Made by a program: the position numbers and the translations under genes. The notes beneath the pieces were generated by a model that saw only the letters and a list, made by a program, of their open reading frames with translations, searched no databases and was not told the origin of the DNA. A DNA stretch of 64,000 nucleotides from Pseudomonadota bacterium (GTDB lineage Bacteria; Pseudomonadota; Gammaproteobacteria; Burkholderiales; JAJZQI01). Positions 44,355 through 63,806 of this stretch are shown piece after piece (within the stretch, counting starts at the first letter, position 1; the number at the start of each line of letters is the position of its first letter). Location of the stretch: assembly GCA_021851875.1 (NCBI GenBank), contig JAJZQI010000014.1:1-64000 (forward strand). The letters are read 5' to 3'.

Positions 44355-44433
44355 GGGATTCCAAATACGAAATATATGTTAGAGTTTTCCGAAAGATTAC
44401 CATATTTTAAACCGGAGATTGGCGAATGGTATG

Positions 44434-44698
44434 GGAACCTCTGAACCGCTTGTTGCCCTGCACTGGCCCACAGGCCGGCTTGCAATCAAGGCGCGCTTTC
44501 GTAGGCATGCCGGGGCCTGTCAAGAAAGCGCAACGCCGAGTGCAAGCCGGCCCGTGGGCCCCGAAGGGCGCGGCATGAGCCGGCCACCTGCGGTGTTGCG
44601 CTTCTTGCCAAGGGCTACGGCCATTGTCTGCGAAGCGCGCCTTGCATCTGGCCGGCTCATGCCGCGCAGTGCAGGGCAACAAGCGGTTCAGAGGTTCC
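44434..44698. repeat. structured repeat element, copy 1 (three stems, two conserved cores)
   Basis: This fills most of the 345-base gap 44355-44699. Outer stem: 32 bases at 44434-44465 pair perfectly with 44667-44698. Inside are two hairpins. The first has 19-base arms 44466-44484 and 44541-44559 around a 56-base core, the second 19-base arms 44568-44586 and 44649-44667 around a 62-base core. The linker between them is CCCGAAGG. A second copy with identical geometry lies at 62714-62978. The second core is an inverted relative of the first (AGGCGCGCTT... against ...AAGCGCGCCTT). It has no coding capacity and no RT, transposase or integrase beside it. I do not recognise the family. Confidence 0.95.
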
Positions 44699-62713: not shown

Positions 62714-62978
62714 GGGAAGACCTGACCAAGTTGTCGCCGCCACTGGCGCACAGGGCAGCTTGCAATCAAGGCGCGCTTTTGATGGCATGCCGGGGCCTGT
62801 CGAGAAAGCGCAACACCGAGTGCAAGCTGCCCTGTGTGCCCCGAAGGGCGAGGGCTGAAGGAGTCATCTGCCGCGTTGCGATTCTTGCCAAGGGCTACGG
62901 CCATTGCCTGCGAAGCGCGCCTTGCAGCTAACCCCTTCAGCCCTCGCAGTGGTGGCGACAACTTGGTCAGGTCTTCCC
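62714..62978. repeat. structured repeat element, copy 2 (three stems, two conserved cores)
   Basis: Same layout and exactly the same length (265) as the copy at 44434. Outer arms 62714-62745 and 62947-62978 (one G-U), first hairpin arms 62746-62764 and 62821-62839 (one G-U), second hairpin arms 62848-62866 and 62929-62947 (two A-C mismatches), linker CCCGAAGG at 62840-62847. The cores differ from copy 1 at about one base in ten, whereas 16 of 32 outer-stem positions differ with pairing retained. The right arm contains the metF stop codon. Confidence 0.95.
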
Positions 62979-63806
62979 CAACTTAAGCCGCTGCCAGATT
63001 TCACTGGTCAGACCTGCCTGGTTGAGGCTGTAGAAGTGTAAGCCCGGGGCGCCGCCGACCAGCAGGCGCTCGCACATCTGCGTCACCACATCCAGCCCCA
63101 GCGCCCGAATGGACTCGACATCATCGCCGTAGCCCTGTAGTTTCAAACGCAGCCAGCGCGGAATTTCCGCGCCGCAGGCGTCGGAAAAACGGGCCAGTTG
63201 ACTGAAATTACCGATCGGCATGATGCCCGGCACAACGGGAATATCGACCCCCTGTTGGCTGATCGCCTCGACAAAGGCAAAGTAGGCGTCGGCATTGAAG
63301 AAGTATTGCGTAATGGCCGAGTCGGCACCGGCCCTGACCTTGCGCACAAAATTCTGCAAATCGTCGGCAGCGCTTCTGGCCTGCGGATGCACCTCCGGGT
63401 AAGCCGCCACTTCAATGTGGAACCAGTCGCCGGTTTCCGCCCGCACGAATTCCACCAGCTCATTGGCATAGCGGAATTCGCCGGGATCGGCCATGCCGGA
63501 CGGCAGGTCGCCGCGCAGCGCCACCATGTGGCGGATGCCTTTGCTCTTGAACAGGTTGATGATGTCACGGATGCCGGCGCGAGTGGAACCGACGCAGGAC
63601 AAGTGCGGCGCCGCAGCAAACCCCTCGGACTGGATTTCGAGCACGGTTTCCAGCGTGTTGGCTTGCGTAGAGCCGCCGGCACCGTAGGTCACCGAGAAGA
63701 AACGGGGGTTCAGCGCAGCCAGCTGCCGGCGGGTTTCGCGCAGCTTTTCCACCCCTTCCGGAGTCTTGGGCGGAAAGAATTCGATGCTGAATGTGCGTGA
63801 ATTCAT
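62967..63806 (-). CDS. metF: 5,10-methylenetetrahydrofolate reductase
   Basis: The FAD enzyme of 279 residues that makes 5-methyl-THF for methionine synthesis. It has the N-terminal SIEFFPPKT, the FAD region SVTYGAGGS and the conserved PGIMPIGNFSQL. The last residues (KLGKT) and the stop codon are encoded in the outer arm of the structured repeat; homologues usually end a few residues earlier. It lies 70 bases downstream of ahcY on the same strand, as in many betaproteobacteria where both belong to the S-adenosylmethionine cycle. Confidence 0.96.
   Translation of the reverse strand: MNSRTFSIEFFPPKTPEGVEKLRETRRQLAALNPRFFSVTYGAGGSTQANTLETVLEIQSEGFAAAPHLSCVGSTRAGIRDIINLFKSKGIRHMVALRGDLPSGMADPGEFRYANELVEFVRAETGDWFHIEVAAYPEVHPQARSAADDLQNFVRKVRAGADSAITQYFFNADAYFAFVEAISQQGVDIPVVPGIMPIGNFSQLARFSDACGAEIPRWLRLKLQGYGDDVESIRALGLDVVTQMCERLLVGGAPGLHFYSLNQAGLTSEIWQRLKLGKT

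Follow-up and report, generated by a model that had tools for sequence, protein, structure and literature searches.

Integron attC sites are folded single-strand hairpins with extrahelical bases and variable stems, and the repeat described here, with its bulged hairpins and variable stems, would resemble them in these respects. Bacterial MITEs such as Correia/NEMIS, ERIC, RUP and QMITE are characterized (PMC10969869, PMC2229807) as small, non-coding, intergenic and multi-copy, with TIRs, a target duplication, a stable hairpin and presumed mobilization in trans, all of which are likewise found or proposed here. The REP and REPIN sequences associated with RAYT proteins (PMC3733652, PMC3116915) resemble the repeat in being palindromic and intergenic, in forming inverted pairs of bulged hairpins and in that some of their ends supply stop codons; the REPs themselves are 20–40 bp long and carry GTAG/CGTC tags (PMC3733652). 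Nearest in plan are the CIR repeats of Caulobacter and Brucella (PMC2229807), which have two long inverted-repeat arms separated by a linker and a conserved motif within the arm.

The window, i.e. the whole stretch of 64,000 nucleotides that was analysed, contains two copies of the repeat, each of 265 bp and with a common layout (44434–44698 and 62714–62978). Rfam 15 contained no family that reached its gathering score on the window or on relatives of the element, the sub-threshold matches on the element being generic long-hairpin miRNA models; an unrelated tRNA was recorded at L080. The open-access literature, a scope that leaves aside subscription papers and preprints, yielded no description of the element, and no such family is named in the parts consulted of the MITE review (PMC10969869). 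Within Rfam and this literature the original prediction, which knew of no described family with this plan, is thus borne out, and the element appears to be undescribed, of a known kind (MITE) but with an unusual plan. Our preferred reading, to which we assign a probability of roughly 70%, is that the repeats are non-autonomous DNA transposons (MITEs) moved in trans by a DDE-type enzyme, with stems maintained through their palindromic nature and a core that is recognized as a folded strand.

Architecture and distribution of the element

In both window copies the canonical orientation, with hairpin A first, corresponds to the minus strand. Read along the window, copy 1 consists of a 32-bp TIR arm (44434–44465, pairing at 32 of 32 positions with 44667–44698), hairpin B (44466–44559, plus strand), the linker mini-hairpin CCCGAAGG (44560–44567), hairpin A with the conserved bulged core (44568–44666, minus strand) and the second TIR arm (44667–44698). 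Copy 2 has the same parts in the same order: TIR arm (62714–62745), hairpin B (62746–62839, plus strand), the identical linker (62840–62847), hairpin A (62848–62946, minus strand) and second TIR arm (62947–62978), the two arms being Watson-Crick paired at 31 of 32 positions.

The original prediction had described two copies of identical length and layout, which proved correct to the base, with variable but covarying stems around conserved cores. Of the 32 pairs of the outer stem, 16 differ between the copies; each of the 16 is changed in both arms, and 15 are Watson-Crick in either copy. The second hairpin stem differs at nine of 19 pairs, in seven of which both partners have changed with pairing intact in each copy, and the first hairpin stem differs at four of 20 pairs, two of them compensated. 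The cores are identical at 49 of 54 and 56 of 62 positions. Both copies fold far beyond chance expectation (RNA z = −15.8 and −13.9, 0 of 200 shuffles; DNA z = −16.7). The notion of a two-copy family did not hold, as the genome contains a third copy at another place and relatives occur across the order and the class.

These relatives, some of which had already been found in other genomes of the order by DNA similarity, were sought with a covariance model of the best-conserved hairpin, hairpin A (model R1; 65 columns, 21 pairs), a search that the original prediction had proposed. On the window copies R1 matches hairpin A on the minus strand (44585–44649, 82 bits, E 8.6e-18; 62865–62929, 80 bits). 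It also matches hairpin B, which lies about 105 bp from hairpin A and is recognized on the other strand. This second match is weak in many of the order's elements (29 bits at 44482–44542, plus strand, in copy 1) and almost as strong as that of hairpin A in some genomes of the class (66 and 62 bits in G594). Judged by these matches, hairpins A and B are related and inverted with respect to each other, hairpin B being the more degenerate in copy 1.

Apart from partial or chance matches, the sequence around full matches forms an outer stem, a pair of hairpins and a linker that is itself a mini-hairpin. The canonical order is a TIR of about 30 bp, hairpin A (about 100 nt), a linker of the form CCC-NNN-GGG, hairpin B and the second TIR. 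Elements could be delineated automatically for 163 of 184 matches, the commonest lengths being 268 and 269 bp, although a few of the shortest or oddest among these 163 reflect chance arms. Length is nearly constant at about 268 bp (mostly 163–422 bp), the elements are multi-copy and no transposase gene lies inside them. The core consensus reads GGATGC(AA)GGCGcg-NNN-gC(GCn)G-stem-GGTnnTtCC-stem-C(AA)Gc-NNN-cg(CAA)CGCcGCagacg, with unpaired bases in brackets, and in the bulges (AA, CAA) each A and C position is conserved at 89–100%.

Several variants were seen between good TIRs. Five loci (L112, L113, L059, L124 and L173; 163–188 bp, within a one-hairpin range of 163–190 bp) have a single hairpin, and two (L049, 422 bp; L044, 375 bp) have extra internal sequence. 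At one locus of the sister genome (L017, G001:C12:19558) the TIR and stem resemble those of the window family, the B-type hairpin resembles that of G046, and the element adjoins a GGGCGTATTAACAC-type end; on this pattern it is a possible chimera, which hints at recombination between elements.

Model R1 matched 120 genomes in a sample of 399 from the order (E ≤ 1e-3) and 88 in a sample of 369 from the class (E ≤ 1e-5), E-values being rough and calculated per genome, with fewer than one false genome expected in each set. Roughly one in four to one in three of the genomes sampled thus contain the family. Hosts named by a DNA pattern scan include Thiobacillus, Sulfuriferula, Parasulfuritortus, Methylobacillus, Gallionellaceae and Rhodocyclaceae; single MAGs labelled Rhizobium and Planctomycetota also appeared as carriers and may be misbinned. 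Copy numbers per genome are often at least 13, these values being lower bounds with about 13 candidates scored per genome, and 240-kb samples of three closed genomes contained three, six and three cores, from which very roughly 30, 110 and 30 copies per genome may be extrapolated. Many of the 14 matches found by DNA similarity in G046 are near-identical, and runs of equal R1 scores occur within G594, G343 and G161. Contigs often stop inside the element at the G046 loci L018–L029 and at several loci among L130–L199, as would be expected if palindromes or repeats interrupt the assembly of short reads. Phage records contained no family match. Two family pieces occur in plasmid records, on the Azotobacter plasmid pAcX50f (L259) and a plasmid of P. 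aeruginosa PA83 (L260), both with GGGTCTGTTGACG-type TIRs and in unannotated stretches.

Covariation and strand-specific pairing

Complementarity of the stems extends well beyond the window. In the core alignment of 114 distinct sequences, which was fitted to model R1 so that pairing is somewhat favoured, 94.0% of cells were paired compared with 78.2% after shuffling, with 352 against 101 double changes, and sliding the partners by one to three columns reduced pairing to 27–45%. In 121 elements analysed model-free, the TIR was 89.8% paired (42.8% shuffled) with 1336 double changes (371 shuffled) and the H1 stem 94.3% paired (54.2% shuffled) with 643 double changes (167 shuffled); these elements were delineated by their own inverted repeats, which favours the percentage paired, and the double-change count is a measure of sequence variation. 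The copies are related, so that pair and mismatch counts are non-independent. TIR and stem sequences are very different between lineages yet paired, and the bulged core persists. The stems thus remain complementary in other genomes, a check on which the original prediction had staked its claim of novelty. Between copies, uncompensated differences over 45 pairs reached a plateau at about 5–7.5 whereas compensated ones rose from 3 to 21 as divergence grew. The copies are thus at a steady state, changes in a single arm being resolved all the time, and this fits both arm-to-arm correction and compensatory selection.

Mismatch types bear on whether pairing is kept at the level of duplex DNA or in a single strand. 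A process acting on the duplex should leave G·T and A·C equally common, whereas a folded RNA tolerates G·T far better, and a folded DNA strand does so to a lesser degree. The TIR, H1 and H2 stems held 157 A·C and 115 G·T combinations; there is therefore no preference for pairing on the strand of hairpin A, and this lack of a G·T excess in the outer stems points to DNA-level maintenance of their pairing. Hairpin A behaved differently in its inner helix 2, with 34 distinct G·T against four distinct A·C combinations. The ratio was 12:2 in copies recovered by a DNA pattern in which those bases were unconstrained, and 4:0 in hairpin B on its own strand. Helix 1 leaned in the opposite direction with small numbers (1:6) and helix 3 was without clear bias (11:7), shared descent lowering the effective number of events behind such ratios. 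The split is suggestive of outer arms matched at the DNA level and an inner hairpin under selection as a folded single strand.

The same data bear on the possibility that the repeat is a structured-RNA gene, either the whole element of about 265 nt or hairpin A of about 100 nt, acting in trans or within a host mRNA and only secondarily mobile. Strong core covariation and very stable RNA folds would be expected of such a gene, and helix 2 tolerates G·T and avoids A·C on one strand as RNA would. We nevertheless consider this improbable, since the outer stems lack a G·T excess and show if anything the opposite tendency, orientation is indifferent to flanking co-directional genes (about 33 in the same and 30 in the opposite direction, counted by eye), and Rfam offers no match at gathering score.

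A second alternative dispenses with recognition altogether: the stems would be paired through descent from perfect palindromes with arm correction, and the core conserved through recent ancestry. Arm-to-arm correction does occur in palindromes, and the plateau of about 5–7 uncompensated changes per copy pair alongside accumulating compensated ones is as this account predicts. It sits poorly with the asymmetric AA and CAA bulges, which resist the correction that homogenizes the neighbouring stems, with a core kept across many families despite changed TIRs and with the G·T/A·C asymmetry of helix 2, and we regard it as unlikely.

The whole element is a palindrome, and on the preferred MITE reading its stem mutations would be copied from arm to arm by template switching in a hairpin during replication or, alternatively, be selected back into pairing, so that stems drift in sequence yet stay paired. 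In hairpin A, and in some lineages in hairpin B too, the bulged core would be held in sequence and fold on one strand, from which we infer that a protein or process recognizes the folded single strand; the inverted pair would present the same hairpin once per strand.

Insertion sites and mobilization

Among 79 flank pairs from five TIR classes, 39 consist of an identical 3-mer, in every case TNA (24 TTA, 13 TAA and 2 TGA), whereas shuffled flanks gave a mean of 20.4 and a maximum of 30 in 2000 shuffles. Some other TIR classes have a CTAG context or no clear duplication, so that more than one transposase type may take part. An open frame of 90 codons or more that enters the element has its stop codon exactly at the triplet in 27 of 78 cases, compared with 0–4 at other offsets. 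In the flanks of loci L072 and L099 of G376 the TNA triplet lies within a palindromic target (GCC-TTA-GGC, GGCC-TGA-GGCC), possibly inside terminator hairpins.

Copy 1 is missing from the orthologous site of a sister genome (G001:C10), where the joined flanks align without gaps over 436 bp at 88% identity, an empty site of the kind that the original prediction had suggested seeking; compared with this site, copy 1 has no readable target duplication. The insertion interrupts the start of a gene that we take from its translation to be thioredoxin-like, and it follows by a few bases an ATG which G001 has in frame (probable native ATG at 44426–44428, plus strand, the frame at the sister-species empty site being judged by eye). 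The gene may restart at GTG 44700, with AGAGG contributed just upstream by the second TIR arm. Copy 2 adjoins a minus-strand ORF (62967–63806), presumably metF-like from its translation, whose stop codon and last residues are provided by the second TIR arm. If the repeats are indeed MITEs, a DDE-type transposase acting in trans would cut and paste the element via its TIRs of about 30 bp, usually into a TNA triplet (TTA or TAA) that would be duplicated on insertion; many insertions would fall on stop codons, and the duplication would restore the stop.

The best evidence for a DDE partner, single and degraded, is a putative C-terminal fragment of an IS1380-like transposase in G046 (contig C8; L305:1135–1170; NF033539, 1.7e-12; PF01609, 2.8e-7), scoring 46.7 bits against an NF033539 cut-off of 180. 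Its ORF ends about 16 bp from GGCGTCGAGAAACAATAA, of which 18 bp are identical to the TIR of the G046 element and which lies beside TTA. A further split copy of the gene occurs on contig C2 of G046 (L303/L308). This protein was not found in 14 other carriers, and no intact autonomous partner was found among the carriers tested. PF01609 (DDE_Tnp_1) had no match in the many-copy closed genomes G044, G376 and G665 and was missing from most carriers tested, and PF13340 (DUF4096) was absent from nine of ten, G044 and G376 included, so partners of the DDE_Tnp_1 and DUF4096 types were rejected as a general driver. The driver in G044, G376 and G665 may have been lost or may lie outside the transposase families tested. 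Two further leads were abandoned: scanning by TIR pattern for a longer element bounded by GAGCC-type sequence gave only the short elements and solo ends, and the IS1380-like homologues of Polaromonas and Methylibium plasmids had no convincing common TIR. No relatives were found in viral contigs.

TIRs differ strongly between lineages (GAGCCTATTTCAG, GGGCTCGTTAATG, GAACGTGTT, GGGCGTGTTAACAC, GGAAGCTCTGAACAAG and GGCGTCGAGAAACA being examples) and the core persists, a pattern which suggests that the cargo has swapped termini over time or that TIRs evolve fast together with their transposases.

A third alternative would see REP/REPIN-like single-stranded DNA hairpins moved by a RAYT/Y1 (HUH) transposase, the TIRs being incidental. 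Y1 enzymes recognize bulged hairpins, Y1_Tnp genes were present in 12 of 16 carriers compared with six of 14 non-carriers tested, and hairpin A lay on the presumed lagging-strand template for 26 of 37 of the matches listed in three closed genomes (p about 0.02, a weak tendency that is possibly biased by the listing). The difference between carriers and non-carriers is not significant, however, four carriers have no Y1 gene, and R1 matched just twice around 23 Y1 loci, both times at chance level (E 0.17 and 0.67). To our knowledge Y1 enzymes do not make target duplications or long TIRs, both of which the element has, and we think this explanation very unlikely. Ordinary bidirectional transcription terminators, also stable hairpins that are often near stop codons, can be dismissed as a full account, being refuted by the clean insertion relative to the sister genome and by the target duplications, in addition to which the elements are 265 bp long, form an interspecies family with TIRs and lie between convergent genes in only 31 of 125 cases.

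The original prediction's central idea, that a structure (RNA or single-stranded DNA) is selected or that arms are corrected in a mobile palindrome, largely stands, and the repeats are better named a new and very widespread MITE family. It was incomplete in not recognizing the outer stem as a transposon TIR with target-site duplication, and it missed the relationship between the two hairpins, the occurrence of the family in a large part of the order and class and the split in G·T/A·C behaviour between outer stems and inner core.

Significance and relation to known systems

Should the MITE reading be right, the family is among the more widespread repeat families in these bacteria, apparently unnoticed, and offers a natural system for how palindromes keep their arms matched. 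Two questions would follow: why the ends of a MITE change when a hairpin motif away from those ends is retained, and what protein recognizes a folded single strand that carries CAA/AA bulges. A bolder version, which we put forward tentatively as possible rather than probable, is that an ancient hairpin cargo, read as a folded single strand by a protein, has been carried through much of the order and class by repeatedly acquiring different DDE termini, its inverted duplication offering the hairpin on either strand. Of practical relevance, the palindromes coincide with short-read contig ends (as in G046), and insertions change gene starts and ends.

Set beside the systems introduced above, the element differs from integron attC sites in that no R-box motif was seen by eye in the expected orientation and in that it inserts with TIRs and a duplication. 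IS1380-family insertion sequences, of which the G046 fragment is a putative representative with its 18-bp end identical to the element TIR, possess a transposase and lack the hairpin cargo. Unlike REPs, the element has hairpins of about 100 nt enclosed within 30-bp TIRs, a target duplication and no copies beside Y1 genes. The CIR repeats, compared by description only, are without an end-to-end TIR stem and carry a GANTC motif. From the described bacterial MITEs the element is set apart by its three-way-junction plan and near-constant length, by TIRs that enclose a pair of inverted bulged hairpins, and by a core that is common to much of the order and class while the TIRs differ from lineage to lineage.
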